From a bacterium (GTDB lineage: Bacteria; Patescibacteriota; Saccharimonadia; Saccharimonadales; Saccharimonadaceae), in the NCBI GenBank assembly GCA_030530485.1, contig JAUMUX010000001.1, positions 1 to 64,000 on the forward strand: a DNA stretch of 64,000 nucleotides, in the 5' to 3' direction. How positions within the stretch are numbered: the stretch's first letter is position 1; every line of letters starts with the position of its first letter. This document shows positions 159-61,475 of this stretch, piece after piece. A model generated the notes under the pieces. The model was given only the letters and a program-made list of their open reading frames with translations, was not told the origin of the DNA and made no database searches. The translations under genes and the position numbers were made by a program.

Positions 159-190
159 GGTGGTAAAAAATAAATTTAGCTGGAGATTCT

Positions 191-592
191 ATGATAAAAA
201 ATATCCCAATAACAGAACTAGAAAACATCGCAACAACAAGAATATTAAGCACGAGAGCGATTGGAGCTGAAATTTTTGAGCGAGAAAAACTTATTAAACA
301 AGCGCTATTTGCAGTAAATGATATTTTAAAGGAATGTGGATTAAACTCTGAGCTTTGGTTTCGTGAGCGGAGGAATAAGGTTTTTCTATTTAATGAAGCG
401 AACCGCCGGATTTTAGCTGAACTTCAAATTGATGGTGAATATTCCTCGAAGAACAGTATAATTCGGAAGCCGAAAATTATTCTTCTTGGAAGTCGAGGTT
501 TTTTGAAAGAAAAAACGGTCGGCGATTTAATTGCTAACAATCTTCATTACGAACGTTCAACCAATAGAAGTAGGAGAAAAATCGAAAAATAA
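191..592 (+). CDS. Hypothetical phage protein upstream of terminase
   Basis: A 133-residue basic protein that I do not recognise. It is the first gene after the promoter-hairpin element and lies 17 nt before the small-terminase candidate, so it belongs to the packaging operon. The N-terminal half looks helical and the C-terminus is rich in Arg and Lys (RSRRKIEK), which would suit a DNA- or RNA-binding protein. HNH nucleases often sit in this position in siphophages, but no HNH motif is visible. Function unknown. Confidence 0.7.
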   Translation: MIKNIPITELENIATTRILSTRAIGAEIFEREKLIKQALFAVNDILKECGLNSELWFRERRNKVFLFNEANRRILAELQIDGEYSSKNSIIRKPKIILLGSRGFLKEKTVGDLIANNLHYERSTNRSRRKIEK

Positions 593-7033: not shown

Positions 7034-7573
7034 ATGGAAAACAATCCTGATTCAACAAAACCTGCTGGCGAAAACGGTATGAACCAGAATCAACAGGGTG
7101 ACGAACCGAAAACTTTCACACAAGATGAAGTGAATGAAATCATGTCGAAGCGCTTGAACGAAAAAAGCGCTAAAGATGAGGCTAAATTCGAAAAGCGGCT
7201 TGCCGAAGCCCAGAAAGAATGGGAACGAAAGGCAAAACTTAGCGACGAAGAGCGTGCTGCAGAAGCTCAAAAGGCGAAAATCAGCGAGCTTGAAGAACGC
7301 GAAAGAAAAATCACAATGCGAGAACGCAAAACTGAAGCCGCCGAAAAACTTGCTGCGAAAGAAATTCCGTCAGAATTCGTGAATTATGTTGTCGATGCCG
7401 ACGCAGAAAAAATGAATTCGAACATCGAAGGACTTTCGAAAGTTTGGAATTCCGCTCTTGAAAAAGGCGTTAAAGCTAAACTTGCTGGAAAAACTCCCGA
7501 AGATGTTGGTGGAAATAATTCACAAGGAGCGACATCAAATTACACACAAAGCAATGGTGTAAGCTCGTTCTAA
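7034..7573 (+). CDS. Capsid scaffold protein (DUF4355 / gp20-like)
   Basis: A 179-residue, highly charged protein. A disordered N-terminus (about 1-30) is followed by FTQDEVNEIMSKRL, which is typical of Phage GP20/DUF4355 scaffolds, then a long Lys/Glu/Ala coiled coil (about 40-125) and a polar tail. It has a good ribosome-binding site (AAAGGAG) and stands 27 nt before the major capsid gene. It should guide capsid assembly and leave or be degraded before packaging. No protease domain is visible. Confidence 0.85.
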   Translation: MENNPDSTKPAGENGMNQNQQGDEPKTFTQDEVNEIMSKRLNEKSAKDEAKFEKRLAEAQKEWERKAKLSDEERAAEAQKAKISELEERERKITMRERKTEAAEKLAAKEIPSEFVNYVVDADAEKMNSNIEGLSKVWNSALEKGVKAKLAGKTPEDVGGNNSQGATSNYTQSNGVSSF

Positions 7574-7600
7574 TCAGACTCAAGAAAAGAAAGGGATTTT

Positions 7601-8434
7601 ATGGCAGTAGATGCACGTAATATCTATTCTGACAATGCCGAGACAAAGGCAAAATTGGCTGAAATTAAAGGCCAAATCATCGAAGCTGTTATAAAAGGAA
7701 CAGTTTCAACTAAAATTAAAAATACTTTTGGAATTGGAAACCCAAGCGCTGGATCAGTAGCTTACGACCGCTTGAAAAACGCTGTTGCGAAAAATTATGG
7801 CTCAGCACGTAAAGATAGCAAAGGTGAGCCAGTTCGCAATACTGGACGTGTTATCAACAATATTGATGACCGCCAAGAAATCGTTGAGGAATATGACAAT
7901 ACTGATATTAAACAGTTTGGTATTGCTGACCTCATCACACGTCGAAAGAACTCACAAGCAAGCTCACTAGCTCGATATCTTGATACAGCATTCTTTGCTG
8001 AAGCTGTTAAATCAGGAACAGAGATTCAGAGTTTGACTTCAGCAACACCAATCGAGGAAGTTCTCGAAAAAGTTATTCAAACAGTTGAAACTGTCAAGAA
8101 TGACTGGGTTGATGGTGTAGATCGAAGCGAAATTGTTTTGACAGTGACACCAGCAATTTATGGTAAACTCGCAAACTACCTAAACAAGGTTAAAAACGAG
8201 ATTACTGGTGAGGTTGATGTTTTGTTTAACGGTCAGGTTCGAATTTTCTCAAATCACCGCCAAACAAAAGCAATCATTGCAATGCACGAAGGAGCAATCG
8301 CTCAAGATGTAAACGTGTTTGATTTTGACCCACAAAAAGTGCCATTTTCAAACTCGGTTGAAGCTTCACTCTTCTTTACTCAAGGAACAAAAGCTGTTGA
8401 ACCAGATCTCGTGTTCTACGCTGATTTAGCTTAA
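7601..8434 (+). CDS. Major capsid protein (HK97 fold, likely)
   Basis: A 277-residue protein directly after the scaffold gene, where siphophages encode the shell protein. The N-terminal helix, the central QFGIADLITRRKNSQASSLARYLD and the C-terminal ASLFFTQGTKAVEPDLVFYAD are consistent with a short HK97-fold capsid protein without a processed delta domain. The gene has stronger codon bias than its neighbours, as expected for the most abundant virion protein. Fold assignment is by position and general pattern. Confidence 0.88.
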   Translation: MAVDARNIYSDNAETKAKLAEIKGQIIEAVIKGTVSTKIKNTFGIGNPSAGSVAYDRLKNAVAKNYGSARKDSKGEPVRNTGRVINNIDDRQEIVEEYDNTDIKQFGIADLITRRKNSQASSLARYLDTAFFAEAVKSGTEIQSLTSATPIEEVLEKVIQTVETVKNDWVDGVDRSEIVLTVTPAIYGKLANYLNKVKNEITGEVDVLFNGQVRIFSNHRQTKAIIAMHEGAIAQDVNVFDFDPQKVPFSNSVEASLFFTQGTKAVEPDLVFYADLA

Positions 8435-8458
8435 TATTAACCTAAAAAAGGAGGAAAA

Positions 8459-8653
8459 ATGAAGTATTTTCTCGTTAATTCAACAGGTCTTGTCGTTGGA
8501 GTGCCAGAATCAGTAAAAGTTGGTTCTGGCGAAGAGGCGTCAGGTATAGTTGAACAATATCAGGCTCGCCCAGAGGAATACACACCGTGCGATAAAAGCG
8601 GAAAACCTCTCGCGGTAGAAAAAGCCAAAAAGACCGAAAAAGTTGAGGAATAA
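8459..8653 (+). CDS. Small phage protein between capsid and connector genes
   Basis: A 64-residue protein with a beta-rich front half and a Lys/Glu tail (KAKKTEKVEE). Its ATG follows a strong AAAAAGGAGG. Small proteins of this type often lie between the major capsid and connector genes and may decorate the capsid or be non-structural. I do not recognise a family. Confidence 0.75.
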   Translation: MKYFLVNSTGLVVGVPESVKVGSGEEASGIVEQYQARPEEYTPCDKSGKPLAVEKAKKTEKVEE

Positions 8654-8657
8654 TAAA

Positions 8658-9041
8658 ATGCCACAGGAAGAATTCGAAATAGAAGTCATAGCTAAAGCCA
8701 AAGAAATTGCTAATTTTGAAGATGAAAAGTTGTTAAAGTTTGCCGTCGGCGAAATTTGCGACCGTGTCTCGTTATATTTGAATCTTCCGGAAAAAGCCGA
8801 TTTCGACCGCCGATTGGTTAGGATTCTCGCGAATATGACCTGTGGTAATTTTATCAAATTCGAAAGTGCTGCGAATCGAACCGCCGAACGAGCAATTTCA
8901 AGTTTGAGCGACAATGGTCAGAGTATCAGTTATCAGAATGCTACACAAAGCTATTTTGTAACGGCTAAAGATAGTGAAATTTTCGATGGCTATGTTGAGA
9001 TTCTAAAGCCGTATCGGAGGATAAATGTTGTTTCCAGATAG
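8658..9041 (+). CDS. Head-tail connector (gp6/gp15-like adaptor)
   Basis: A 127-residue, mostly helical protein. The pattern of a short acidic helix, then AVGEICDRVSLYLN and VRILANMTCGNFIK, resembles Phage_connect_1 / HK97 gp6-like adaptors that dock under the portal. ATG 8,658 is preferred over an in-frame TTG at 8,643. It overlaps the next gene by 17 nt in the normal connector order. Confidence 0.7.
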   Translation: MPQEEFEIEVIAKAKEIANFEDEKLLKFAVGEICDRVSLYLNLPEKADFDRRLVRILANMTCGNFIKFESAANRTAERAISSLSDNGQSISYQNATQSYFVTAKDSEIFDGYVEILKPYRRINVVSR

Positions 9042-9360: not shown

Positions 9361-9767
9361 GAGTTTCGGTTTCGACCTCAATAGTTAATAGTAGAAATCT
9401 CAATTCAATTAACGATGCTTTAATTAGTGGAGTTTCGAAAGCAGCAATGCTGGTTCAAGGTTCAGCTAAAAACAAAGCTCCTGTCGATAGTGGAACGCTT
9501 CGGCAATCAATTAGAGCTGATAAGGCTAAAATTCAAGGAGAAAATGTGACCGCTACGGTTTCTACCAATCTTGAATATGCGCCTTATGTTGAGTTTGGAA
9601 CTGGATCGAGAGGACAGTCCACAAACACTAATACGGAAGTTGAAGTTAGCTATCGGTCGGACTGGCGTGGAAATAAGGCTCAGCCGTTTCTATGGCCAGC
9701 ATTGAGGGAAAACCGAAACAATTCAATCAAAATAATCAGAGAAGAAGTTAGGAAGGCAGTGAAATGA
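9357..9767 (+). CDS. HK97 gp10-family tail-completion protein
   Basis: The GTG start at 9,357 overlaps the previous stop. The 136-residue protein has the signature of the HK97 gp10 family: GSAKNKAPVDSGTLRQSI near residues 35-52, then LEYAPYVEFGTG near 78, and a C-terminal PFLWPALRENR. Members act at the head-tail junction or tail terminus. Confidence 0.85.
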   Translation: MRVSVSTSIVNSRNLNSINDALISGVSKAAMLVQGSAKNKAPVDSGTLRQSIRADKAKIQGENVTATVSTNLEYAPYVEFGTGSRGQSTNTNTEVEVSYRSDWRGNKAQPFLWPALRENRNNSIKIIREEVRKAVK

Positions 9768-10102
9768 TGTTTCTACCAAAACAAGAAATTTTCGAAAAGC
9801 TTAAAGAAACTGGCGTTGCGGTTTCGCTAAGCGGACAAAATGTTTTCAAGAAACTTCCAGCCTTAACTTTTCGAATTGATGATAACTCGCCACAATATGG
9901 ACTGAAAGGTGAAATTTCTGCTCAAGAGATAATTGCCACAGTTGATATATGGGCGAATAGCTCTAAGGAAGCCTCAAAACTTCTTTCAGAGATTGAAAAG
10001 AAAATGCGTGAGATTGGTTATTATCTTGAATTCTCAAGTGATGTTCCAAATCCAGACTCAAGTATTTTTCATATAAATAACAGATTTAATAGTAAAAAAT
10101 AA
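9764..10102 (+). CDS. Putative tail terminator / tail-completion protein
   Basis: A 112-residue protein following the gp10-like gene with a 4-nt ATGA overlap. The pattern of KLPALTFRI, then IIATVDIWANS, then LLSEIEKKMREIGY resembles the small alpha/beta tail-completion proteins (DUF3168 / gp17-like) that sit just before the tail-tube gene. The family is inferred from order and predicted fold. Confidence 0.6.
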   Translation: MMFLPKQEIFEKLKETGVAVSLSGQNVFKKLPALTFRIDDNSPQYGLKGEISAQEIIATVDIWANSSKEASKLLSEIEKKMREIGYYLEFSSDVPNPDSSIFHINNRFNSKK

Positions 10103-11223: not shown

Positions 11224-14200
11224 GTAGAACCACAATTGATGAACTGCAGGTTTTGATTTCGGCCAACAGTTCGAAATTCCAAAATGAAATCGCAAAAGTG
11301 CGTGAAAATCTCGCACAAGTTAGTCAATCCGCAAGAAGATCAGGAGAATCAATCGCTGGCGGATTTTTAAAGGCACAATTAGCACTCGGAGCTTTGAAGG
11401 GTGCTTTTAATGCTGTCGTTGGAGTTGCGAAAGCGGCAACTAGCGAATTTGGTTCGTTAGAACAAAATCTTGGTGGTGCTGAGGCTGTTTTTGGACAATT
11501 TTCGGACGCTGTAAAACAGAAATCGAAAGAATCCGCTCAAACAATGGGAACCTCAATGTCGCAATATTTGGCAGCGGCAAACAAAATGGGCTCATTGTTT
11601 CAGGGTGCAGGCTATGATGTTCAAAAATCAATGGTGATGACCACAGACGCAATGCAACGAGCCGCCGATGTTGCGAGCGTGATGGGAATTAGCCAAGAAG
11701 CCGCTCTTGAAAGCGTGGCTGGAATGGCTAAAGGTAACTTCACGATGATGGATAACCTCGGCGTTGCTATGAACGATACGGCGTTATCTGCTTACATGCT
11801 TGAAAAAGGTATCCAAGGCAACATTGAGAAAATGACCACCGGCGAAAAAGTTGGTATTGCCTACCAAATGTTTATGGATAGAACAGGGAAATATGCTGGA
11901 AACTTCGCTCGAGAATCAATGACACTGGAAGGCGCGCTTGCAATTTTGCGAGCAGAACTCTCAAATGTTGCTGCGACTCTTGGTTCGGCTTTCGCGCCAG
12001 TTGTTTTGAGTGTTTCGAATTTTATTTCGAATGTTTTATTACCAGCAATCAACGCCGCAATTCCGTATATCGTTGGATTTATGAAAGTGGTTGGCACGAT
12101 GGTAAATTATGTTATCTCGGCACTTTCTTCGCTATTTGGTGCAACTAAAAAAGCAGGCGGAGCGCTTGGCTTTGGTGGAGTTTCGAAAGCAGCAGAATCT
12201 GCTTCAAAAGGAATGAGCAACCTCGGTAAATCCGCAGGCGGTTCAGGTGGAGCTGGTGGAATGAATAAAGCCGCAGGTTCAGCCAAAAAATTGAAAAAAG
12301 AATTGCTCGGACTTGCGAAATTCGACGAAATGAATGTTCTAAAAACGCCCGAAGATACGGCAGGCTCAGGCGGTGGCGGCGGTGGAGCTGGCTCTGGCGG
12401 AGGTGGTGGCGTTGATTTCGAAATGCCACAAATTCAAACTGGCGGTTTTAAAAATGCCTTTGATGAAATTGGGGCAAAAGCTGAAGAAATCGCGAATAAG
12501 ATTAAGGGCTTTTTCTCAGATATGTTTGAGTTTAAGAAAATCGGTTCGGCTTTTAAACGATTTTGGGATGATATTAAGGCAACTGCAAAACCAGTTTTTG
12601 AGGTTATTGGCGATGCTTGGGAACGATATCTAAAACCAATTATTAGCTGGGCTGGAAATGAACTTTTGCCTGCTTTTTTGAATGCTGTGGGTGGAGCGGC
12701 AAGATTTCTTGGTGAAATGTTTAAATCTGCTTATAATTTCTCGCGTCCCTTCATTGATGCTTTTATTGCGCCACTCGTTGGCTTTATCGGATCAGGAATC
12801 GTGAAATTCTTAAATGGAATTGGTGATGCTTTTCGAGCAATGTCGAAAGATAAAGGACTGGTTGATTTCCTAACTCAAATTACTATTACAATCGGTGGAA
12901 TGACTGTAGCAATTAAAGCTGCCGAAGCAATTTCAGCATTTAATGCAGGTGTCAAAACAATGCAAGCCCTAGCGCTTTCAAGCCCTCAAGCAATGGCTTC
13001 TATGGTCTCGAGCCTCGGTTCAGTAAAAAGTGCATTTGTGCTTGCTGGTGGAGGTATTGCAGGTATAAAAGCATCGGTTATTGCGCTCGGTGCAAGTATC
13101 AAAACTTCGGTAATTGGTGCTTTTAACACAGTAATGGCTCATCCATTAATTTTAGCAATAGCCGGTATTGCGGCAGGATTTGCATTCTTAGGTGGTTCGA
13201 TAAAATCAGCTTTCGAACAAGGAAACCCTGCAATGTGGGAGAGTGAAGCTCGGGCTAAAGCACTTAAAAAAGCTCAAGAAGACCTGCAAAAAGCAATTGA
13301 TGGCGTTAAAACAGCAGAAGAAAATCTTAAAAATGCAAGAAATTCTGAGACTGATGCGAATTTGCAAAGAATCGAGGCAGTAAAGGCTCAAAAGAGAGCG
13401 ATGGAAGAATTAGCGATAGCGCAGCAACAAACTGGAATAAGTTTTGAAAGTGTTAAGTCGCAAATTGAATCTGGAACACTTGCTTTCGAAAACTTAACTC
13501 CGCAGCAACAAGCGGTTTATGAAAAAGGTTTGCTGCTCGAACAAGCTAACCAAAAAGTTCAAACTTCTCAAGATAATATGAACAAGGCGATCCAAGACAC
13601 GAAATCTAAAACTGAAGAGCTTAAAAAGGCAAAAGATGAGGAATTGGCGCAAAGACTAGCTGATGCAACTTCGCAAGCAGTTATCCAAGGGAAATATAAA
13701 AATTCGAAAGATGCAATCGATGCATTAAAGAGCGGCGTTTTGCAATACAAAGATGAAAACGGCAATATGGTGAAAGTCAGTGAAGAAGATATTTCACGAC
13801 TTGAAAATACTACAAAAACAAAGTCTCAAGATATTGTAAAAATTTATCGCGATTCGAAAAGCGGCGCCGATCAAGGGTTCTTCGGGCCGATGGGAAAAAG
13901 TCTTGCGACAGCTGGTGATCAATTAGGGAAATTTGCAGGCTGGGCTGGTGAAAAATTTGGTGAATTTATCAGCTGGGCAAAAAAAGCAGGCTCGGACGCT
14001 TGGAATGGAATTACATCATTCTTTGGCGGAATCGGTCAGTGGTTTAGCGACCGCTGGGGTGATATTAAAAACGCATTTTCGAATGCTTGGCAAACTTTTT
14101 CGAATATTGGTCGCAATATTTGGGAAGGCCTAAAATCCGGAATCGGCAATATCGCCAATAATATGAGAAATATGTTTTCTGGGGCTGTGGAAGGCGTGAA

Positions 14201-23168: not shown

Positions 23169-23321
23169 TTAATTCTTATCAACTAGCGAAAACACATAAA
23201 TCACCAAAATAATTGCTAAAAAGTTCAAAACACGAAGTGCTAAATTGTCAGATAAAACCAACAACGCTAAATTTGATAGAAAACAAATCACTAAAAAGTT
23301 CTTTTTAAAATTATCACTCAT
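23169..23321 (-). CDS. Small membrane protein (50 residues)
   Basis: The reverse-strand ATG overlaps the stop of the upstream gene at 23,321 (TAATG). The product, beginning MSDNFKKNFLVICFLSNLAL, has two short hydrophobic stretches separated by a polar turn. It is the last gene of the leftward operon. Tight coupling and a clean hydrophobic pattern support it as a real gene. Function unknown. Confidence 0.65.
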   Translation of the reverse strand: MSDNFKKNFLVICFLSNLALLVLSDNLALRVLNFLAIILVIYVFSLVDKN

Positions 23322-23560
23322 TATACCCGCTCCTTTATTTCTTCTAAAATTTTTATAGATGAATCTATAACTCTTTCATGTTCTTTATCCATTACTCGTT
23401 GATCCACTTCTACTTCAAAGAAATTATCTGGTGAATCAATATTGAGTTTCTGCTTAACTTCATCACTTACAAATATTGTTTTCTTAACCATTTCTTTCTT
23501 TAAATGTGGATTCAAAAGAGATTTAATTCTTTTATCGTCATATTTTTTAGCTTTATTCAC
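23321..23560 (-). CDS. Hypothetical 79-residue early phage protein
   Basis: A charged protein with mixed acidic and basic helices (KKYDDKRIKSLLNPHLKKEM; DSSIKILEEIKERV). It follows the phosphatase gene and is coupled to the small membrane protein. No TTCGAA and AT-rich. Function not recognised. Confidence 0.65.
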   Translation of the reverse strand: MNKAKKYDDKRIKSLLNPHLKKEMVKKTIFVSDEVKQKLNIDSPDNFFEVEVDQRVMDKEHERVIDSSIKILEEIKERV

Positions 23561-23574
23561 ATTTATTCCTATTT

Positions 23575-24079
23575 TTATACGACACTCGTTATATTAGGCT
23601 TATAACATATAACCCCGTGTTTTTTATACATATCATTCACTTTATTATCATCATCAAAAAGCGAAGAGAATATTCTTAAAGCCAATATGATCTTTAATTA
23701 AATCCTCCTTAACTTGATAAGCTGGTCGTAAATCATTTTCTAGGCGCATAAAATAATTACATTGAAATCTATCAATTCTAAATCTTTTCATATTATCGGT
23801 AAGCCAATTTATAGTGGCTTTTTCACATCTTCTATTTCTACCAGTTATAAGAGCAATCCTAATTCCTTCTCCCATTGCTGACTTATTTGGCGTATTTATA
23901 TCATCTATTAAATAGAAAATAGATTTTAATAGCACAAATCCACTCGCTAATGCTATATCTTTTACTACTTCATCATAAGAATAAAAGTTCTCGTAATCCT
24001 TATCTTTACCCTGAATATATTTCAAACGATGCGAGCAATCCGCCAAAACTCCATCGATGTCAAATACTATGTATTTCAT
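23575..24079 (-). pseudogene. HAD/PNKP-type phosphatase, frameshifted near its C-terminus
   Basis: The continuous frame (23,654-24,079, 141 residues) starts with the HAD motif KYIVFDIDGVLADCSHR, has the second motif ALITGRNR, and ends with FMRLENDLRPAYQVKEDLI then NILFAF. It resembles the 3'-phosphatase domain of polynucleotide kinases. Skipping one T of a T5 run (bases 23,656-23,660) continues the protein as DDDNKVNDMYKKHGVICYKPN to a stop at 23,575, exactly the missing HAD acidic motif and C-terminus. The break is therefore a one-base frameshift: a real mutation, a sequencing error in a homopolymer, or slippage. Confidence 0.8.
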
Positions 24080-24318
24080 TATTGTTCCTGTAAAAATTTA
24101 ATCGCTTCTTCTTTAGTATCAAACCTTTTCATCTTTTTATTGCCTTTCGATTTCATTACTATGAAAGCCATATACATGAAACATAAATCAATCAACACAT
24201 TACCGCTTAGCAGATAGTGGTTGAATAATAGTAATCCAGCAATCGTTAGAAATGAAAAGATATCTGCTAATATTGATTGTATAAGTGTTTCGTGAACTAT
24301 TATTGTGTTGTTTTTCAT
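24079..24318 (-). CDS. Small two-helix membrane protein
   Basis: A 79-residue protein with two hydrophobic segments (about 15-35 and 40-57) and a basic C-terminal tail (KSKGNKKMKRFDTKEEA). Its stop overlaps the phosphatase start. AAAGGAG precedes the ATG, and a structured leader lies further upstream (24,345-24,472). Function unknown. Confidence 0.7.
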   Translation of the reverse strand: MKNNTIIVHETLIQSILADIFSFLTIAGLLLFNHYLLSGNVLIDLCFMYMAFIVMKSKGNKKMKRFDTKEEAIKFLQEQ

Positions 24319-24344
24319 TATATTTTATCTCCTTTAATATTATT

Positions 24345-24472
24345 GAGGCAGGGCAGAAACATTTGAAAATTGCCTATGATCGTGTTAAAGGTGCTTGTTT
24401 CTGTCTATCCCTCAAATCTGAACAATAACCTTTGTGTATATAGACACAGATACACAAAAACCTATTATTATA
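24345..24472 (-). promoter_or_regulatory. Leftward promoter and two-hairpin leader
   Basis: Read on the minus strand, a -10 box TATAAT (24,472 to 24,467) predicts a start near 24,460. That is the edge of a perfect 9-bp stem (24,431-24,439 with 24,450-24,458). A second, longer structure follows, pairing CAGAAACA/TGTTTCTG (24,354-24,361 with 24,397-24,404) closed by GAGG/CCTC. The leader ends at the ribosome-binding site of the membrane gene. No clear -35 box. Confidence 0.5.
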
Positions 24473-24509
24473 ATTATCACTCTATTAAATATTATTGATA
24501 ATTTTAGTT

Positions 24510-24790
24510 ATGCTCAGGTTCGAGGGGAGGAGCATAGCTCCTCCAAGGAATGATTAAATGATTAAAATAATCTGTTGTAGGACTGAGTCTTCAAGTTGGA
24601 AAGTGTTTCGGATTTCTCGACCTCTGCCTTACTCCCATTTGGAAATACGATACACTTTCAGTTGCGAACTCAACCAGTTTTATTCCAGCCCTACAAGGGA
24701 CGACCGAATTGCTTCAGTCCTCCCCCGTTATGTATAGTTCGTAGGGCTTTCGCCCCTTGTAAAGCCGGAATTGAATTGTTAAGGTTTTAT
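24510..24790 (-). ncRNA. Candidate structured RNA with GNRA-capped hairpins
   Basis: This 280-bp stretch has no plausible gene. On the minus strand it forms GGGC-GAAA-GCCC (24,755-24,744) and a 12-bp stem with one mismatch capped by GCAA (24,724-24,713 with 24,708-24,697), both stable GNRA tetraloops. GAAAGTGT/ACACTTTC (24,599-24,606 with 24,652-24,659) and a perfect 8-bp stem (24,526-24,533 with 24,537-24,544) follow. The GNRA loops exist only on the minus strand, the direction of the operon. No known RNA family is recognised. Confidence 0.5.
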
Positions 24791-24796
24791 GAGATT

Positions 24797-25180
24797 TTAC
24801 TGCTCATAAGTCAAATATGTCTTCCACTCTTCGGGGTGTTTTTTGAAGCTTTCTTTGATGTCTTTTGGGGACTGGAAATATATATTTGGAGTCTTTGCTC
24901 TATAGTCTAGACCGTGACCTGGTTCTTCAAGAATAAAATCCCAGTAGCCAAAAAATTTAGTTTCATCTCCGTTATTCCAATCAGGTTTAAATCCTTTGGC
25001 GTCTTGCTTGATAATTTCTTTGGCTTTTAAATATTTAAGATACTTTTTAGTTTTTTCTACGGTTTTAAATAGTAATCCTAAATCTTTTATATTTTTAACT
25101 TCCAAAGCACTCCAGCCAGAATAGTAATCAGTATTTATTTCTTTAAATTTTGATTTATAAATATCTATAGTGAAAAACAT
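24797..25180 (-). CDS. Hypothetical phage protein (127 residues)
   Basis: A Lys- and aromatic-rich protein (AKGFKPDWNNGDETKFFGYWDF) of a kind seen in several phage early regions, possibly nucleic-acid related, but no function is recognised. It starts behind AAAGGAG and is followed by the candidate structured RNA. It has no TTCGAA, unlike genes from 25,404 onwards. Confidence 0.7.
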   Translation of the reverse strand: MFFTIDIYKSKFKEINTDYYSGWSALEVKNIKDLGLLFKTVEKTKKYLKYLKAKEIIKQDAKGFKPDWNNGDETKFFGYWDFILEEPGHGLDYRAKTPNIYFQSPKDIKESFKKHPEEWKTYLTYEQ

Positions 25181-25194
25181 TTTTCTCCTTTAAT

Positions 25195-25380
25195 TTACTT
25201 TTGGCAATTAACTGTAGTATTTAGCTTAGCTTTAGTGCTTTTGAGTTCAGCTTCTGAGCCTATAAATAGCCCAAATGCACCCGAAAAGAGTATTAGGGCG
25301 ATTATAGCAATCGCACGCCAAGCCGACATTTTAAATTTTAGATCTTGCATGATTAAATGCTGAATATCAGGTTGTTTCAT
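25195..25380 (-). CDS. Small single-pass membrane protein
   Basis: A 61-residue protein with one membrane helix (about 22-41, AIAIIALILFSGAFGLFIG) and a short polar tail. AAAGGAT precedes its ATG. It lies 14 nt from the next gene in the operon. Small early-region membrane proteins of phages can act in exclusion or lysis timing, but nothing specific is visible. Confidence 0.65.
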   Translation of the reverse strand: MKQPDIQHLIMQDLKFKMSAWRAIAIIALILFSGAFGLFIGSEAELKSTKAKLNTTVNCQK

Positions 25381-25403
25381 AGTTATCCTTTCATTTCTAG
25401 TTA

Positions 25404-25817
25404 TTAAAATTCGACTTTCTTTGGTTTTGGTTCGCCGAGATATTGCTGAATTTCGAAAATTGCTTGATCATATCCAATCACAAATCTTGCGCGATAACCT
25501 TTATTTCTTAGCTCTTTAAGCATTTTATCTTGTTCGATTAAATGTTTATTCTGCCTAATTTCACCATTCTTCTTGAAAACAATAACATTTTCAGCTTTAA
25601 TTTCGAGAAATAGGCCGCTCGCTAAGGTATTACTTTCAGCAATGAACAGATCCGGCCAAGCTCGGGATTTCTGAAATTTCTTGTGTTTTGTTGCTTGGCC
25701 TGGGCTCATTTTCATGCCACTTGAGAAATCTGTGCGAAATAATACATCGGGGTAGTTGTTGCGGAGGTAGTCGCAAATTTTAAGGTGCAGATTTTCTTCA
25801 GTTTTTCTCATTAACAT
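25404..25817 (-). CDS. VRR-NUC domain nuclease
   Basis: A 137-residue single-domain nuclease. The VRR-NUC (PD-(D/E)XK) pattern is clear: FRTDFSSGMKMSPGQA, then RAWPDLFIAE and GLFLEIKAEN, followed by LIEQDKMLKELRNKGYRARF. Stand-alone VRR-NUC proteins are common in phage replication/recombination regions and act as structure-specific endonucleases, probably resolving branched DNA. Overlaps the 36-codon ORF upstream. Contains TTCGAA like the structural genes. Confidence 0.88.
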   Translation of the reverse strand: MLMRKTEENLHLKICDYLRNNYPDVLFRTDFSSGMKMSPGQATKHKKFQKSRAWPDLFIAESNTLASGLFLEIKAENVIVFKKNGEIRQNKHLIEQDKMLKELRNKGYRARFVIGYDQAIFEIQQYLGEPKPKKVEF

Positions 25818-25908
25818 ATCTTAGTTCCTCATATCTTTGCCACTCTGGCGAAATAATATTAACTTTAATTTTAACTACTCTAGAAATACCATTAATTAAA
25901 ATTTTCAT
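25798..25908 (-). CDS. Micro-ORF (36 codons) coupled to the VRR-NUC gene
   Basis: ATG at 25,908 (reverse) follows a ribosome-binding site AAAAGGAAG. The product begins MKILINGISRVVKIKVNIIS and ends 20 nt inside the nuclease gene in another frame. It directly follows the structured RNA at 25,929-26,051, so it could be a leader or coupling peptide for the nuclease, or a small structural protein. Confidence 0.5.
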   Translation of the reverse strand: MKILINGISRVVKIKVNIISPEWQRYEELRYVNEKN

Positions 25909-25928
25909 AATTCTTCCTTTTAGATTTC

Positions 25929-26051
25929 AGCCCTCCAACGGACACAAGGCTCATAACCACGAAATAATCGCGGCGAGCTACCAATAAGGAGGTGCTCGAC
26001 TTTTTTCTGCAGCTCTAAACCACTTGCGAAACCTGTGCCCATTGGAAGGCT
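25929..26051 (-). ncRNA. Candidate structured RNA with an anti-Shine-Dalgarno loop
   Basis: On the minus strand, 26,051-26,032 pairs with 25,949-25,929 in a 20-bp helix with three G.U pairs and one bulge. The G.U pairs would be A.C mismatches on the other strand, so the minus RNA is the folded one. Inside are two hairpins: CCGCGA/TCGTGG (25,973-25,957), and an 8-bp stem with a bulged A (25,998-25,974). The top of that stem reads CACCTCCTTA (25,994-25,985), identical to the 3' end of bacterial 16S rRNA. It fills the gap between two early genes. Confidence 0.68.
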
Positions 26052-26062
26052 AAACTTATTTT

Positions 26063-26338
26063 TTAAAATCCTACTGCTCGTCGATAATCATCAAACTGCT
26101 GTGAACGCTCTATACTATTTTCTTTACATTCTTTGAGATATTCATTATAATAATCGTTTTGCCAATCTTCGAAAGGGAAGTCTTTAATATCCATCTTTTC
26201 GGCAAGGCCATTACCAATTTCGTAATATCTGCAAAATTCGTCAAAATCCATATCTTCAAAACCATCTTCGTAAAGATTGCGATTTTCTAAAATAATATTT
26301 TCCAGAAAGTCACGGATTAATTTTTGGTCAAAATTCAT
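26063..26338 (-). CDS. Very acidic hypothetical early protein (91 residues)
   Basis: A strongly acidic, aromatic-rich protein (DGFEDMDFDEFCRYYEI; FPFEDWQNDYYNEYLKE). Its start overlaps the upstream gene by 11 nt. High negative charge and small size are features of DNA-mimic inhibitor proteins, but this is only a compositional hint. No family recognised. Confidence 0.7.
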   Translation of the reverse strand: MNFDQKLIRDFLENIILENRNLYEDGFEDMDFDEFCRYYEIGNGLAEKMDIKDFPFEDWQNDYYNEYLKECKENSIERSQQFDDYRRAVGF

Positions 26339-26540
26339 AGCTTAACTCCTTTATTAATTTTTCGCTATTCCTTCGCAAGAAATCTTCACAAATTCGCCGA
26401 TCTTCACAATCCATTACATATTGCAGCATTTCCGCTTTTAAAGGGAGAGCGAGTTTTGAACTGAAAATTTCTTTTAACTCTGTGATATCTGCAGTTGAAT
26501 ATTTATTAAAAATTTGATTAATTACTGTTCTGAAATTCAT
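26328..26540 (-). CDS. Hypothetical early protein (70 residues)
   Basis: A helical protein with two cysteines (MDCEDRRICEDFLRR). It is placed head-to-tail with its neighbours, overlapping the downstream gene by 11 nt and 2 nt from the upstream one. No family recognised. Confidence 0.65.
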   Translation of the reverse strand: MNFRTVINQIFNKYSTADITELKEIFSSKLALPLKAEMLQYVMDCEDRRICEDFLRRNSEKLIKELSYEF

Positions 26541-26542
26541 TT

Positions 26543-26845
26543 TTAATCCTTTGTAAAAAATGTTCGTTGGCGATTTTGTGTCATTCTTTGCACACGAGCT
26601 GCAATGACTTTTTTAATTTCTTGCCGTGTTTGAGACGGCATTTTTTCATAATACTTAGCCACAAATTCTCGTATTTCGTCGACTTCGAACTCTTCGAAGA
26701 CTTCTGCCACTTGACGTTCATCTTTCATCTCTATCAGCTTTGAGCGATAGGCGGCGACATAGTCCGCCCACGCTTTCGCTGAATGATTTTCTTTATAAAA
26801 TTGATACGCCAATTGTTTAACTAATAGATACTCAGGTTTTGTCAT
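26543..26845 (-). CDS. Hypothetical early protein (100 residues)
   Basis: A helical protein with a basic C-terminus (KKVIAARVQRMTQNRQRTFF). Its ATG overlaps the stop of the nuclease-FtsK gene by 4 nt, so it is translationally coupled to it and may assist it. No known domain recognised. Confidence 0.7.
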   Translation of the reverse strand: MTKPEYLLVKQLAYQFYKENHSAKAWADYVAAYRSKLIEMKDERQVAEVFEEFEVDEIREFVAKYYEKMPSQTRQEIKKVIAARVQRMTQNRQRTFFTKD

Positions 26846-28917
26846 AGGTAGAATCCTTGTAGTCGTTCTAGATGATTTGCTCGTGGATCTTGATAGAGCA
26901 TATCACCATTACCAGTGAGCATTTCTGCGCCAGTTTCGTCGAGAATAATCTTGCTGTTAATTGAGTTGGTTACACTGAAGGCAATCTTTGTCGGAATATT
27001 CGCCTTGATTAAACCTGTTACAACATCGGCAGAAGGTCGCTGAGTTGCGAGAATTAAGTGAATTCCTACCGCTCGAGCTTTTTGTGCAATTCGGATAATT
27101 GAGCTTTCTGCACTTGGTATTCCTAGATCTGAAGCTTCAAGGATTGCTTTTTCGAGCTCTTTCATTACTTTTTTCTGTTCCTTAATCGTTTCTTTTTCAA
27201 GCTCTGACATTCTTGGGTTAATTTTCAGATCTTCCAGTGATTTTACTTCTGATAAATCAAAATCTTTATTAAAATGCAGAATCGTTTCGATCATACCTTT
27301 AATATTCAATTTAAATTCTTCGCGTTTATTGCCAGATGTCATCATCAAGTCTGCAAACTCATCAATCACACAAACAATTCGTGGCATTTTGCCTTTGTAA
27401 TCTTCGATTTTTCGCACACCAGCTTTTCGCAAAGTTTTATAGCGAGATTCCATTACTTCCACTAAATCCGCAAGTGTTTCTTGTGCATGAATTGGATTAG
27501 TAACAATCGGTTTTAATAAATGTTTGCTATCTTCATAAAATCCAAGTTCAACTTGCTTTGGATCGATTAGCACGAGTTGGAGTTCGTCTGTCGAAAGTTG
27601 TTTAGTGAGCGATTCGAGAATCACGTTCAGCATAACGCTTTTACCAGAGCCAGTTTGCCCAGCGATTAGCAGATGCGGCATTTTGGTTAAATCACCGTAA
27701 TGATTTTCACCAAAAATATCTTGGCCGAGCGGAATTTCGAAAGTGCCTTTTTTAAGCAGAGAATCGTCGAAATCTAGAACTTTACGCTCAGGATTTGGAA
27801 TTTCCACACCGATTAAGTTTGTGCCGTAGATTGGCGCAAGCACGCGAACTGATTTAGCTTGAAGAGCGATTGCGAGGTCATCAGCACGTGAGCCGATATT
27901 TTTCATTGCGACACCACGATTTGGCCGGAAAGTATAGCGAATTACGCTTGCACCAGTGAAGGTTTCGCCAATTGCGCCACCGATTCCGAACTCTAAGAAT
28001 TTTTTAATAATCAAATTCTCATTAGTTTCGCCGTCAGTTTCAAGCAAATCAACAGTTGTATTCTTCTCGCTGAATTTTTCCGCAACGTTCATTTTGCGCT
28101 TAATTTTAGCTTTATCAAATCCAGTTTCGATATTCGCAAGAACTTCCATCGATTCTTGTCCGTTTAAAATATCACTCGGGTTAGGGAAGAATTTAGCATT
28201 ATCGTTGTTGACATAGTCGAATACGTTCGTGATGAGCTTTTCGGTTGTGGGCAAGAACTCAAGCAGATCATTTCGAGAATATTCGAATTCGCGAATTTGC
28301 GGCGAACCATCTCGATTCTTAGTCTTCTTGATCTCAATGAATCCAACACTTTCAATTTCTTTTTTGAGAACTTTTTCAGCCAAAACTAGATAAATTGAGC
28401 CTTGAAGTAGGTATTTATAGTTTTCTTGATACTCTGGATCAAGTGGATCGTTAGTGGCCGACGAGTAAAATGAAACTGTTTTATAATCTTTAAGCTTAAT
28501 TTTATCTCCACTCGAGCCTTTAATAATTAGGTCGATGATTCCAACCATTGGCACTTTCGAAATTTCAGCTTCGAGTCGTTTTTCAGCATCGATAACTTCG
28601 AATTTTGGTGCTTCCTCAAAATAAATATTGAGCGAATCGTTAAATTCTTTAATCATTTTTTCACGGCTGCCAGTTTTACCATAATCTATTTCGTAATCGC
28701 TAGTTGAATTTATTTCATCAAGCCCAGCAGCTGCAGCTTCGTCAAAAGTTCCGCCCTTATAGTAAATTTCAAGTGCTTTGTGGAAAGCTTTACCGACTAC
28801 CATTGATGGGCTCAAAGGATTGTCGTAAACTTTCGCAATGTAACGCTTTTGAAATTCAACCTGATTTCGTAGAAAGGTTACAAGGGCAGAGTAGCTTAAG
28901 TGATCAACTCTATTCAT
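26842..28917 (-). CDS. RecB-like PD-(D/E)XK nuclease fused to an FtsK/SpoIIIE-type DNA translocase
   Basis: A 691-residue fusion. Residues 1-250 form a RecB/Cas4-type nuclease: LSYSALVTFLR, VVGKAFHKALE (His46), MVGIIDLII (Asp129) and KLKDYKTVSF (Asp144-x-Lys146). Residues 300-691 form an FtsK motor: SRADDLAIALQAKSVR, HLLIAGQTGSGKS (Walker A near 419-427), CVIDEFADLM (Walker B) and LILATQRPSADVVTG. A charged helical insert of about 75 residues (530-605) splits the ATPase. The C-terminus stops where the ATPase ends, so the DNA-sequence-reading gamma domain of FtsK is absent. The start at 28,917 has GAGGAG upstream; the frame is open to 29,028. It overlaps recT by 8 nt. Confidence 0.88.
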   Translation of the reverse strand: MNRVDHLSYSALVTFLRNQVEFQKRYIAKVYDNPLSPSMVVGKAFHKALEIYYKGGTFDEAAAAGLDEINSTSDYEIDYGKTGSREKMIKEFNDSLNIYFEEAPKFEVIDAEKRLEAEISKVPMVGIIDLIIKGSSGDKIKLKDYKTVSFYSSATNDPLDPEYQENYKYLLQGSIYLVLAEKVLKKEIESVGFIEIKKTKNRDGSPQIREFEYSRNDLLEFLPTTEKLITNVFDYVNNDNAKFFPNPSDILNGQESMEVLANIETGFDKAKIKRKMNVAEKFSEKNTTVDLLETDGETNENLIIKKFLEFGIGGAIGETFTGASVIRYTFRPNRGVAMKNIGSRADDLAIALQAKSVRVLAPIYGTNLIGVEIPNPERKVLDFDDSLLKKGTFEIPLGQDIFGENHYGDLTKMPHLLIAGQTGSGKSVMLNVILESLTKQLSTDELQLVLIDPKQVELGFYEDSKHLLKPIVTNPIHAQETLADLVEVMESRYKTLRKAGVRKIEDYKGKMPRIVCVIDEFADLMMTSGNKREEFKLNIKGMIETILHFNKDFDLSEVKSLEDLKINPRMSELEKETIKEQKKVMKELEKAILEASDLGIPSAESSIIRIAQKARAVGIHLILATQRPSADVVTGLIKANIPTKIAFSVTNSINSKIILDETGAEMLTGNGDMLYQDPRANHLERLQGFYL

Positions 28918-29599
28918 TGATTTTCTCCTCGGTTTGGTTAATAATTTGTTCGTCTTCGCGCGAAATTTCTTCTTCAATATAAATTCCAGAAATATCGAAC
29001 GCTTGGCGAATTGCATTAGCTTCAGCACATTTTGTGAGCATTACAATTGGCATTTTTGCCCAAGTTGATTTCGGCTTACCATCCTTATTTTTCTGGACGA
29101 ATTCTTCATAAAAAGCAGTATATTTCGTGAATTCTTTCGGCTCACCGTTAACTAGTCCAAAAACCGGCACAGTTACGCTTTCGAGCTGTCCATCGGCGCT
29201 CTTAGTAATTTCAGCAGTTCCAGTGTGAGAATATTTACCGCCTCTTCGAGCGAGTTTTCGAAGACCATGAATTGATATGATCGGCGTAAGCTCTTCGCGC
29301 TCAGTGCTTTTATTCCAGATATATGTCGCATAAATCTCATTCTTGAACGGATTAACTCCGAACTGGCTCGCGATGATCATAAATCGTTTTAAATCTTCAA
29401 TCGGTCGAGCTTGTTTTGTCTTGGTTAGCCCGAGTATCGATACATGGATTGAGGCAAGCATTCGCTCTTTGGAAGCGGCGGTTAAATCTCCTTCGAAAAG
29501 ACCGTTCGCATATGGCACGACTTCACCATATAATTCACGACGCTTTTTATTCGCTAATTTCTTTGCATCTTTTTCTGTAGTAATAACTGCTTCTGACAT
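28910..29599 (-). CDS. recT: RecT-family single-strand annealing protein
   Basis: A 229-residue RecT. Family features include ERMLASIHVSILGL, RFMIIASQFGVNPFKNEIYA, ISIHGLRKLARRGGKYS and WAKMPIVMLTKCAEANAIRQAF. It anneals complementary single strands during phage recombination. Partners are normally an exonuclease that makes the single strands, and here the nuclease-FtsK fusion directly downstream is the obvious candidate. Its ATG overlaps the stop of a small membrane-protein gene. Confidence 0.93.
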   Translation of the reverse strand: MSEAVITTEKDAKKLANKKRRELYGEVVPYANGLFEGDLTAASKERMLASIHVSILGLTKTKQARPIEDLKRFMIIASQFGVNPFKNEIYATYIWNKSTEREELTPIISIHGLRKLARRGGKYSHTGTAEITKSADGQLESVTVPVFGLVNGEPKEFTKYTAFYEEFVQKNKDGKPKSTWAKMPIVMLTKCAEANAIRQAFDISGIYIEEEISREDEQIINQTEEKINE

Positions 29600-29766
29600 T
29601 ATTTACAAATCTCCATTTCATTGATCATTTGCCATTCACAGTTGTGTTCTTTTTCATAATTTCGATATTTTTGCCATCGATATTCTGAACCAAACCAAGC
29701 AAGAGCTACTAGTCCGACAATCATAAAGAATATTATTTTTTTAAATTTTGTTGTTTTTGCGTGCAT
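29599..29766 (-). CDS. Small membrane protein (55 residues) at the head of the early operon
   Basis: ATG at 29,766 (reverse) follows AAGGAG. One membrane helix (about 10-26, KIIFFMIVGLVALAWFG) precedes a polar tail with two cysteines. Its stop overlaps the recT start (TAATG), so it is the first coupled gene of the early operon. Function unknown. Confidence 0.7.
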   Translation of the reverse strand: MHAKTTKFKKIIFFMIVGLVALAWFGSEYRWQKYRNYEKEHNCEWQMINEMEICK

Positions 29767-29927: not shown

Positions 29928-29992
29928 AGCCCCATGGATAACGCACAACCATGGGGCTAATTTTGTAAGCTTAGAAAAGATGTGCGTTTTTT
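29928..29992 (+). ncRNA. H-type pseudoknot RNA ending in U6, at the probable prophage-host edge
   Basis: AGCCCCATGG (29,928-29,937) pairs with CCATGGGGCT (29,949-29,958). The 11-nt loop contains AACGCACA (29,940-29,947), which pairs perfectly with TGTGCGTT (29,981-29,988), followed by U's to 29,992. Loop lengths of 2, 1 and 22 nt are ideal for an H-type pseudoknot. A possible -10 box TAAAAT (29,917-29,922) would start a 64-nt RNA at its 5' edge. It lies between divergent genes, where an ordinary terminator has no upstream gene to serve. The rest of 29,767-30,000 holds nothing I recognise, including no clear promoter for the leftward operon. Confidence 0.6.
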
Positions 29993-30003
29993 AGAGTTGC
30001 ATC

Positions 30004-38501: not shown

Positions 38502-39786
38502 ATTGGATATTATGCGCCGAGCGGGCAAAAATTTGAAGCGAGCAAAACTTCGCACAGCTTTGACTGCGCTGGCGATTGCGGTTGGCGCCACCACAATTTC
38601 TCTTGCTTTGGCGGCGGGTAAGGGCGGAAATGCTTACGTTGATTCGCTTGCCCAAATGATTGGCGACCAAAATTCGATTAACGTTTCGCGCAAAATTGTG
38701 GAGGAATCGCGCAATTCGCAATACGAACTGACCAAAAAGGGCGAAGAAAAATCGCGTGAAGAAGAAATCGAAGAAGCAAATTTCAAATACGCTCTATTCG
38801 AAAGCGACGTTGCGAAAATTCGCAAAATTGAAGGTGTCGAAAGTGTAAATCCGTGGTTTGCGATGTATATCGACAACGTTCGCTTGGAGGGCGGCAGTAA
38901 AATCAACGTGACAGCGGTGACTAAAAATAATTCGAAAACGGTGGAGCTATCGGCGGGTTCGCTAGTGAACAATCAAATTGAACACGGCAAAACCGTTGCG
39001 CCAAAAAGCTTTGCCAAGGCGGTTGGCTTAAGCGAGAAAGAATTGATTGGCAAAAAAGTGATTTTTGAAGCAATCAGCCCGAAAGGCAAAACTTTCGAAC
39101 GCACTTTCGAAATCGTTGCGGTGGATAAAGGCAAAACCGACACCGAATTTAGCTATCCAAACGCTTTTCAAATCAACAACGCCGACGGCTTAGAAATTTC
39201 GAAAGCGCAAAATGATTCGCAACAAATTTTCTCGGGCATTTCGGTTGGCGTGAAAAAGGGTGCGGATATTGATAAAATCGCCGATTCAATCCGTAATTTA
39301 GAAAGCGGACGTTACGCAGTTTCGAGCTTTAAAGACGATTACAAATCAGTGCAAACCGCTATCAATATTGCGGCAGCTGGACTTGCGGGCTTTGGCGCTT
39401 TGGCGATTTTGGCTTCAGTTTTTGGAATTATCAACACGCAATATATCAGCGTTTTGGAGCGAACTTCCCAGATTGGCTTGATGAAATCGCTGGGCGCAAA
39501 AAGGGGCGATATTTCGAAAATGTTCCGTTATGAAGCGGCGTGGATTGGCTTTTTGGGCGGAACCTTGGGCGTGGCGATTGCCAGCGCGATGGTTTTTGCG
39601 CTGAATCCACTCATCAATTCTTGGAGTATCAGAGCGGCCGCGACGGGTGGTGATTTGCTACAAATCGACTTCTTGGCGAATATAATTTTGATAATTAGCT
39701 TGATGTTGATTTCGGTGATTTCAGGCTATTTCCCAGCACGAAAAGCGGCACGAATGAACCCAATTTCGGCGCTTCGAACTGAATAA
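38494..39786 (+). CDS. ABC transporter permease (MacB/FtsX-like)
   Basis: A 430-residue permease with the usual MacB layout: helix 1 (about 22-42, TALTALAIAVGATTISLALA), a long extracytoplasmic domain (about 60-280), then three C-terminal helices including GALAILASVFGIINTQYISVLERTSQIGLMKSLGAKR (written here only in part as a landmark: LERTSQIGLMKSLGAKRGD). AAAGGAG precedes ATG 38,494 inside the ATPase gene. Probably exports or senses peptides under PadR control. Confidence 0.9.
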   Translation: MRRLDIMRRAGKNLKRAKLRTALTALAIAVGATTISLALAAGKGGNAYVDSLAQMIGDQNSINVSRKIVEESRNSQYELTKKGEEKSREEEIEEANFKYALFESDVAKIRKIEGVESVNPWFAMYIDNVRLEGGSKINVTAVTKNNSKTVELSAGSLVNNQIEHGKTVAPKSFAKAVGLSEKELIGKKVIFEAISPKGKTFERTFEIVAVDKGKTDTEFSYPNAFQINNADGLEISKAQNDSQQIFSGISVGVKKGADIDKIADSIRNLESGRYAVSSFKDDYKSVQTAINIAAAGLAGFGALAILASVFGIINTQYISVLERTSQIGLMKSLGAKRGDISKMFRYEAAWIGFLGGTLGVAIASAMVFALNPLINSWSIRAAATGGDLLQIDFLANIILIISLMLISVISGYFPARKAARMNPISALRTE

Positions 39787-60124: not shown

Positions 60125-60389
60125 TGTGGAAAAGTTTGAATAATCTGTTATTATACTTGCTTTTCCACAGCTTTTGTGGAAAAACTACATTTTATTTTAA
60201 GTATTTTTTAAGAAAAGTCAAAAATAGGTCTTGCAGAAAAATCATAAACACGTTAAAATTAAATCAGTGGAAGCAACAGCAAGCGACCTAAACAAAAAAC
60301 CACTAAATAAAAATAAAAGTACGTTAAAAAATAAATTGTAGTTTATTTTAAGATCAGATACCTGGTGATTAAACAGCTGGACAATCACC
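60125..60389. promoter_or_regulatory. Long regulatory gap before rsmH: DnaA-box-like sites, promoter, hairpin
   Basis: The 495-nt gap (60,093-60,587) has no gene. It holds three copies of TGTGGAAAA or its complement (60,125-60,133; 60,161-60,169; 60,175-60,183), each one mismatch from a DnaA box. A promoter TTGCAG-17-TAAAAT (60,231-60,259) follows, then a 7-bp hairpin (60,364-60,370 with 60,383-60,389). A repeated ATCAGATAC motif occurs near 60,354 and 60,560. The rsmH mRNA would have a leader of about 320 nt, unlike the leaderless genes around it. Confidence 0.55.
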
Positions 60390-60587
60390 GAAATTCAGTA
60401 TAAAATAATATTCGGAGCACATTCTAAAACCTCCCAAAATAAAACTCCACCTCATATATAAGTCTCTCAAACGACAATATGGTTAGCTATACGCTAAGCA
60501 AAAAGTCAACTTATATGAATTCTTAAAACAAAAACAAACAAAAACAAACAGTTTAATCATCAGATACTTGATCTTAAAGGAATTACA

Positions 60588-61475
60588 ATGGAAAAATCAG
60601 TTCACATACCAGTTTTGCTAAATGCTAGTTTAACCGTTATTCAGCCCAAAAAAGGAGAAAGATACCTCGATTTGACCGCTGGATATGGCGGACACGCTGG
60701 CGAATTTTTGCGTATAACTGAAAATTTCGAAAATGCGGTGCTTGTCGATAGGGATGAAAATGCGATTAAGACGCTCGCGAAATTCGAAGAAAAAGGAGTT
60801 CGATTGATTAATCGAGATTTTCTTTCGGCAGCGCAAGAATTAGTGGAACAGGGCGAAAAATTCGATATTATTCTGGCGGATTTGGGCGTTTCGTCGCCGC
60901 AACTTGATATTGCCGAGCGTGGATTTTCGTTTCAAAAAGACGGTCCGCTCGATATGCGGATGAATCCAAAGCAAGAAAAAAAAGCTGAAGAAATTGTAAA
61001 TGGCGCTTCGAAAAAAGAATTGCTGCGAATTTTGATGGAATTTGGCGAAGAAAAACGCGGATTTGCCGAAAGAATTGTTTCGAAAATCTTAGAAGTTCGA
61101 AAAAAAGAGAAAATTCGAACGACTAAACAGCTGGCTGATTTGATTTTAAGCGTGCATAAAGGCGGATGGCAAAAAACCCACCCCGCTACGCGCACTTTTC
61201 AGGCAATTCGAATTGCAGTAAATGAGGAGCTTTGGCAAGTTGAAGAAATGCTTAAGCTTGTTTCGAAACTGCTCAATTCGGGCGGAAGAGTAGGGATTAT
61301 TACTTTTCACAGTCTTGAAGATAAAATCGTGAAGGAATTTTTCAAAAAAGACGGTGAAAATTTACTCGAATCGAAATTCGAAATCCTTACCAAAAAGCCA
61401 ATTGATGGCGCGAAAGAAGACGTTAACAACCCGCGCGCGCGAAGTGCAAAACTTCGAGTGGGCATGAGGAAATAA
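60588..61475 (+). CDS. rsmH: 16S rRNA (cytosine(1402)-N4)-methyltransferase RsmH
   Basis: A 295-residue RsmH (MraW): HIPVLLNASLTVI, SAM motif YLDLTAGYGGHAGEFL, ILADLGVSSPQLD, KTHPATRTFQAIRIAVN and ITFHSLEDKIVKEFF. It methylates C1402 in the decoding site. It heads the division cluster as in most bacteria, although mraZ is not upstream. AAAGGAA precedes the ATG. Confidence 0.95.
   Translation: MEKSVHIPVLLNASLTVIQPKKGERYLDLTAGYGGHAGEFLRITENFENAVLVDRDENAIKTLAKFEEKGVRLINRDFLSAAQELVEQGEKFDIILADLGVSSPQLDIAERGFSFQKDGPLDMRMNPKQEKKAEEIVNGASKKELLRILMEFGEEKRGFAERIVSKILEVRKKEKIRTTKQLADLILSVHKGGWQKTHPATRTFQAIRIAVNEELWQVEEMLKLVSKLLNSGGRVGIITFHSLEDKIVKEFFKKDGENLLESKFEILTKKPIDGAKEDVNNPRARSAKLRVGMRK

Follow-up and report, generated by a model that had tools for sequence, protein, structure and literature searches.

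The put RNAs of phage HK022 are structured elements of early transcripts which act in cis on the polymerase, and the early genes of T7 are separated by intercistronic RNase III sites formed by long hairpins. S. aureus RNAIII and RsaE and Listeria LhrC are CU-rich small RNAs that target Shine–Dalgarno (SD) sequences. BoxA recruits NusB/S10 to the nascent RNA and is the key NusB/E site, and a leader–trailer helix closes the pre-rRNA (PMC10250234). A regulatory boxA is also known from a 5' UTR (PMC5725501). Structured RNAs of the mraW/dcw leader have been described in Actinomycetales, where Rfam lists the mraW RNA motif RF01746 (PMC2864571), and in Rhodobacter, where UpsM, the 5' leader RNA of the dcw cluster, precedes mraZ (PMC5089854).

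The DNA analysed here (the window) consists of the first 64 kb of a 656,503-base Saccharibacteria genome and contains a prophage up to about position 30,000, followed by secA and other host genes. The late genes of the prophage are on the plus strand and the early genes on the minus strand; besides the genes listed in Table 1, the early operon holds small ORFs. About 3.7 kb into this operon lies a structured RNA, RNA1, in the gap between the ORF 26338-26063 and a small ORF starting at the ATG 25908. The protein encoded by 26338-26063 has no relatives among 198 genomes of the family. About 160 nt ahead of its first gene, the operon leader contains a hairpin (GCCCCATGG...CCATGGGGC, 29929-29957, minus strand) that is followed by a T-rich stretch and, judged by these features, looks like a terminator or an attenuator.

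Table 1. Coordinates of RNA1, its parts, the surrounding genes and the related elements.
Feature	Position	Strand	Remarks
Prophage early operon holding the RNAs	23169..29766	-	
RecT	29599-28910	-	early operon
PD-(D/E)XK exonuclease fused to FtsK/SpoIIIE translocase (exo-FtsK)	29028-26842	-	adjoins RecT
phrog_824/Holliday-resolvase-like	25817-25404	-	early operon
PNKP-phosphatase-like (polynucleotide-kinase-phosphatase-like)	24079-23654	-	early operon
RNA1	25926..26054	-	intercistronic structured RNA, 129 nt: P1 closing helix and hairpin head; from folds and arm scan
P1 5' arm UUUAGCCUUCCAAUGGGCACAGG	26032..26054	-	
P1 3' arm GCCUUGUGUCCGUUGGAGGGCUGAA	25926..25950	-	ends 17 nt before ATG 25908
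MFE hairpin GAGCACC-UCCUUAUU-GGUAGCUC	25975..25997	-	holds anti-SD-like CACCUCCUUA (25994-25985)
Possible P2 GAGCUGC/GUAGCUC, 7 bp	25975..26015	-	27-nt loop AGAAAAAAGUCGAGCACCUCCUUAUUG; alternative fold
P3 hairpin GCCGCGAUUAUUUCGUGGU	25956..25974	-	from folds
Next ORF 3' of RNA1	ATG 25908	-	36 codons, SD AAGGAAG
RNA2	24682..24771	-	RNA1-like design, 22-pair closing helix, 4 G.U, z -7.5
RNA3, weaker fold	~24678-24580	-	z -2.4
RNA4, weaker fold	24526-24409	-	15 pairs, z -3.6
L132 intercistronic RNAs	5793-5947, 9576-9717, 9910-10040		closing helices 24, 27, 22 pairs
L040 RNAs	622-807, 4418-4549		
L048 RNAs	11833-11924, ~11930-12050		
Window rsmH (mraW) leader	60335..60589	+	host counterpart
Window leader closing helices	60335-60344/60580-60589, 60346-60357/60568-60579, 60362-60374/60551-60563	+	
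Box 1 GGAGCACAUUC	60414-60424	+	
Core AAAACCUCCCAAAAUAAAACUCCACCUCAUAUAUAAGUCUCUCAA	60426-60470	+	
rsmH ATG	60588	+	

RNA1 is a genuine structured RNA on the transcribed strand. For positions 25929-26051 of the minus strand a minimum free energy (MFE) of -59.6 kcal/mol was obtained compared with -35.5 +/- 3.5 for dinucleotide shuffles (z -6.8); the plus strand gave -39.1 (z -3.3). The larger segment 25900-26080 of the minus strand has a z of -5.7, and none of 200 shuffles was equally stable. An earlier note on this DNA, made from the sequence alone, had described a closing helix of 20 bp. All 20 pairs are present and the helix extends to 26054/25926, so that P1 comprises 23 bp in the fold. In the ungapped arm scan the arms form 27 pairs, 11 of them G-C and 7 G.U, and there is a single mismatch and no A.C. 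In 400 shuffles of two early-operon gaps a helix of at least 20 pairs was never found and one of at least 15 pairs 12 times. The head on the closing helix has two or three hairpins; two had been claimed, and the MFE structure contains a third small one. The G.U pairs are confined to the transcribed strand, as the note had said, and since P1 contains seven of them and no A.C, an RNA is indicated rather than a DNA palindrome. Selection on the fold, on the transcribed strand of the early operon, is supported.

No consensus terminator was found 3' of RNA1 on the same strand. Together with the position of RNA1 in a series of genes that all point the same way, this fits a segment of the operon transcript better than an independent small RNA. 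RNA1 is present in a single copy in its own genome and corresponds to no Rfam family at or above gathering. A DNA search of 200 relatives returned, beyond RNA1 itself, matches at chance level only, and none was found in the INPHARED phages. Inspection by eye for kissing loops of the phi29 pRNA type revealed no complementary loop pair.

Scanning for helices with 15 or more near-perfect pairs around 40-200 nt gave three matches between 22,000 and 30,300. They are RNA1, 24771-24682 (RNA2) and 24526-24409 (RNA4), and each is on the minus strand. With at least 18 pairs, the whole 64 kb contains only RNA1, RNA2 and 38997-39103, the latter inside host coding sequence. The 478-nt gap 24796-24319 has a z of -6.8 on the minus strand and holds at least one more RNA, perhaps three.

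Searching with the exo-FtsK fusion led to the phage contigs L039, L048 and L049 (about 60-64% identity) and L040 as well as to the Saccharibacteria prophages L045, L046, L047 and L132. The fusion recurs in L039, L040 and L045-L049; the early operon of L039 also contains genes for GroES- and GroEL-like proteins (7045-8918, plus strand). L132, a prophage with RecT and exo-FtsK, contains three RNAs which fold best on the coding strand and are all situated between co-directional genes. In related Saccharibacteria prophages the RNAs are likewise intercistronic and have closing helices of 20-27 bp shortly before the next gene; in RNA1, L132, L040 and L048 the long duplex ends 12-40 nt before the next start. 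The arms vary freely between the elements with the pairing kept, and the closing helices contain 7 (RNA1), 4 (RNA2), 5 (L132 5793-5947) and 4 (L132 9910-10040) G.U pairs and no A.C.

Two pairs of these RNAs can be compared closely. The sequences of L132 5793-5947 and L040 622-807 are homologous; among the 19 comparable pairs of P1 there are 5 compensatory and 1 one-sided changes and 0 broken pairs. L132 9576-9717 and L040 4418-4549 share GCACCUUGCAC(A/C)UUCU in the 30-nt loop of a 7-bp P2, which is directly followed by a 6-bp hairpin P3; compensatory changes are found both in P2 and in P3. RNA2, L132 9910-10040 and L048 11833-11924 are without a clear box, and the heads of RNA2, L132 9910-10040 and L048 have little sequence in common.

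The relation of RNA1 to these elements was assessed with three models, built from RNA1 alone (R1), from L132 5793-5947/L040 622-807 (R2) and from L132 9576-9717/L040 4418-4549 (R3). Over 240 kb comprising the window and the related loci, R1 gave one match beyond RNA1 and its reverse strand, L046 13884-14035 (E 0.0016). It lies on the coding strand, immediately 5' of the terminase region in a prophage that has RecT and exo-FtsK. RNA1 and L046 have UUUCGC...AAAAAAGU(C/U)G(A/G)GCAC in common at equal spacing. In 245 genomes R1 found two non-self matches at E <= 0.1, L046 and L053; the latter, its best match outside phages, is in a non-phage context and was judged to be due to chance. The motif TTTCGCN{15,25}AAAAAAGTYGRGC had 13 matches in IMG/VR, none of which was recovered by the RNA1 model, and was likewise rejected as chance; a scan with the pattern TTTYGCAAGT found none. 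R2 does not recover RNA1, and R3 does not list it even with filters off. Consequently, what places RNA1 in this class is its layout, the single match of R1 and the GCACCU box. The layout of the L132/L040 pair, that is P1, a 7-bp P2 with an A-run and then GCACCU in a loop of 27-30 nt and an adjacent P3, can be formed by RNA1 with a 27-nt loop at -59.6 compared with -62.9 kcal/mol for the MFE fold, a difference of 3.3 kcal/mol. By design RNA1 is likely a member of this class of phage RNAs; its descent from the same element is unproven.

The earlier note had centred on the decamer CACCTCCTTA, whose ten bases are identical to the 16S rRNA 3' end of the E. coli type. The decamer is present at 25994-25985 of the minus strand, once in the 64-kb window with 0.01 expected from shuffles. 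Its loop bases had been described as exposed; in the ensemble only UCCUUAUU is open, and CACC is paired (unpaired probability about 0.01). A rightward gene using AAGGAGGTG as its ribosome-binding site had been named as an objection; no plus-strand ORF of at least 40 codons starts there, and the frame from a GTG overlapping AAGGAGGTG stops after 8 codons. The proposal that the RNA pairs with SD sequences or mimics the rRNA tail is not supported. Following the A-run that it shares with RNA1, L046 has GCACAUUCAGG, and its loop reads GCACAUUC; in L132 9576-9717 and L040 4418-4549 the same stretch is GCACCUUGCAC. It is GCAC(C/A)U that recurs in these RNAs, and CCUCCUUA is private to RNA1. As the decamer is not kept in these relatives, a role as anti-SD silencer is disfavoured. 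The box of RNA1, GCACCUCC, is one base off GNACNUU, and through this departure it becomes an anti-SD look-alike. RNA1 shares with the CU-rich SD-targeting RNAs a hairpin loop with UCCUU able to pair with SD sequences; unlike these it has no signals of an independent transcript, and its anti-SD loop is not conserved in L046, L132 or L040.

R2 also matches several Saccharibacteria chromosomes, and the matched element is the leader of the host gene rsmH. In L135, which was inspected gene by gene (gene names being our reading of the translations), the match is situated between mraZ and rsmH (mraW), in the rsmH leader. Allowing up to 3 mismatches, the core ACACCTCCCAAAACTCCACCTC was found in 151 of the 247 genomes of the order; almost all of the listed matches were exact, and the reversed control pattern had two among those listed. 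This nearly invariant 22-nt sequence extends to about 38 nt and occurs in most sampled families of the order. In the window's own family the exact 22-mer is mostly missing; the rsmH leader of the window has a diverged copy with a 5-nt insertion, and its closing helices reach into the ribosome-binding site. At 45 loci the leader closing helix had a median of 19 pairs with its own flanks versus 13 with flanks swapped between genomes, a null value which is raised by swapped pairs that are near relatives. GNWCNTT was found at most 40 nt upstream of the core at all 45 loci. The leader comprises, in sequence, a hairpin, a boxA-like GNACNUU box and a conserved single-stranded core. The box resembles boxA of these organisms' own rrn leaders, which read GACCTTTAACAATTTAG, GTACGTTAACAATTTAG and GAACTTTGACAATTTAG. 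The core adjoins mraZ, and its reverse complement has repeated AGGTG. The rsmH leader is an uncatalogued RNA element, with no match in Rfam at E <= 1.

The phage RNA L040 622-807 contains the exact host core inside its closing helix. At least two phage RNAs, L040 622-807 and L132 5793-5947, are relatives of the host rsmH leader as well as homologues of one another. The IMG/VR contigs L182, L183 and L185, which have phage-type genes, carry the core without a closing helix. In L183 (~100-330, plus strand) a boxA-like box and the host core, a hairpin and then an intrinsic-terminator-like hairpin are found within some 150 nt, in the orientation opposite to that of the adjacent genes; by its looks this element is a small RNA of its own that contains the host core. 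Intergenic stretches of the phage contigs L185 (480-500, minus strand) and L182 (7486-7506, minus strand) contain the core, which in L185 precedes the terminator-like GGAGGG..CCCTCC-TTTAT. In L198, L199, L200 and L203 diverged core-like sequences with 2-3 mismatches are found in the interval that separates a HIT-family gene from an XRE-type regulator gene, antisense and just upstream of the regulator start. Weaker second copies (2-3 mismatches) in host genomes, several of them reversed and upstream of an XRE-type regulator gene, were set aside; other weaker copies in varied places, one of them inside a DnaK-like gene, were left out of the analysis.

RNA1 has, with P1, the long closing helix of the rsmH-leader element. 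It shows no match to the core ACACCTCCCAAAACTCCACCTC within 3 mismatches and has CACCUCC alone in common with it, and direct homology to the host leader is not proven. It is conceivable, although we rather doubt it, that an rsmH/dcw-leader control element has repeatedly been taken over by phages for operon control and that RNA1 is a strongly diverged derivative.

With its hairpin, box and core, the host rsmH leader resembles the rrn leaders and the lambda nut sites (boxB-boxA-boxC), and the box is also found in several of the phage RNAs. The host core, however, is not boxC, the box of RNA1 is one base off, and Nus binding is putative here. The long closing helix recalls the leader–trailer helices of pre-rRNA (PMC10250234), and the Saccharibacteria box departs from the gammaproteobacterial boxA consensus GYTCTTTAANA (PMC5725501). 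The mraW motif RF01746 and UpsM are similar to the host element, not to RNA1, in being structured RNAs of the mraW/dcw leader; UpsM is situated before mraZ, whereas the Saccharibacteria element lies between mraZ and rsmH. No sequence likeness was seen between RNA1 and the put RNAs, which are near the promoter, unlike RNA1 with its position deep in the operon.

The simplest common reading is a cis-acting RNA of the operon transcript, with a box for host Nus factors and a long helix for processing or insulation. RNA1 probably works within its own transcript and not by blocking ribosome-binding sites. More specifically, and short of calling it probable, we tentatively favour a cis-acting role in the polycistronic early transcript (nut/put-like and/or processed by RNase III) over that of an anti-SD silencer. 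P1 (23-27 bp) would present a small head with the A-run and the GCAC(C/A)U box. Host Nus factors (NusB/S10) would recognise the GNACNUU-like box of the nascent RNA as a boxA-type site, and the Nus-bound box might then keep the polymerase processive through the early operon by antitermination. P1 may in addition serve as a double-stranded processing or insulating helix, a substrate of RNase III, just upstream of the next ribosome-binding site. An RNase III gene is present in the host genome, and P1 offers a duplex of about 20 bp or more, as in RNase III processing sites, in the transcript of an RNase III-bearing host. Several observations speak against the cis-acting reading: R2 and R3 miss RNA1, which is without the host core, several long-helix RNAs (RNA2, L132 9910-10040, L048 11833-11924) are without a clear box, the P2 fold is less stable than the MFE fold by the difference given above, and L182, L183 and L185 have the core without the closing helix.

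The helix could also be all that matters, RNA1 being simply an RNase III processing or mRNA-stabilising helix like the T7 early sites, with a head that has no specific ligand. The RNase III of the host, the spacing of the long intercistronic duplex before the next start in RNA1, L132, L040 and L048 and the dissimilar heads of RNA2, L132 9910-10040 and L048 agree with this, and we regard it as a serious though rather unlikely alternative: the head of RNA1 is branched, the L132/L040 pairs keep head sequence and shape besides the helix, and L040 622-807 has the very 22-mer of the 151 host genomes. This exact core would on the other hand be expected if the phage RNAs were decoys imitating the rsmH leader and titrating its host factor (protein or RNA) during infection, and the L183 element, with box, core and terminator-like hairpin, resembles a short separate transcript. 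But RNA1 is without the core and most phage copies are inside operons, upstream of a gene, which makes a decoy unlikely.

The trans-acting small RNA of the earlier note, whose CU-rich loop would pair with SD sequences and silence phage or host messages, we consider improbable. CACCUCCUUA is there with UCCUUAUU unpaired, and several phage genes have AAGGAG sites, but CCUCCUUA is missing from the three related RNAs, no terminator follows RNA1, and SD pairing alone gives no choice of target. Hardly better placed is an element acting as DNA, such as a decayed MITE with terminal inverted repeats, an integron-type attC site or an operator, for example an MraZ site. The inverted repeat (more than 20 bp, enclosing about 75 bp) and the repeated AGGTG of the host core next to mraZ would suit it; the departures from complementarity, however, are G.U on the transcribed strand in all four helices counted, the arms differ freely with the pairing kept, and RNA1 is not repeated in its genome. 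Finally, an open frame of 40 codons (26042-25920, minus strand) spans RNA1. It is very unlikely to be a gene, as its ATG has no SD whereas most neighbouring genes have one, no family match was found and L046 has no corresponding frame.

RNA1 is more interesting for its relatives than for the anti-SD decamer, and an anti-SD reading that is not conserved is replaced by a cis-acting RNA class with relatives. The rsmH-leader element is the most valuable by-product of the analysis. Knowledge of how genes are controlled in the episymbiotic Saccharibacteria and in their phages is scarce. A near-invariant leader core next to a 16S rRNA methyltransferase gene, which is also found in phages, is a testable handle on the control of the division cluster, and the phage copies are a handle on the host machinery exploited by Saccharibacteria phages.
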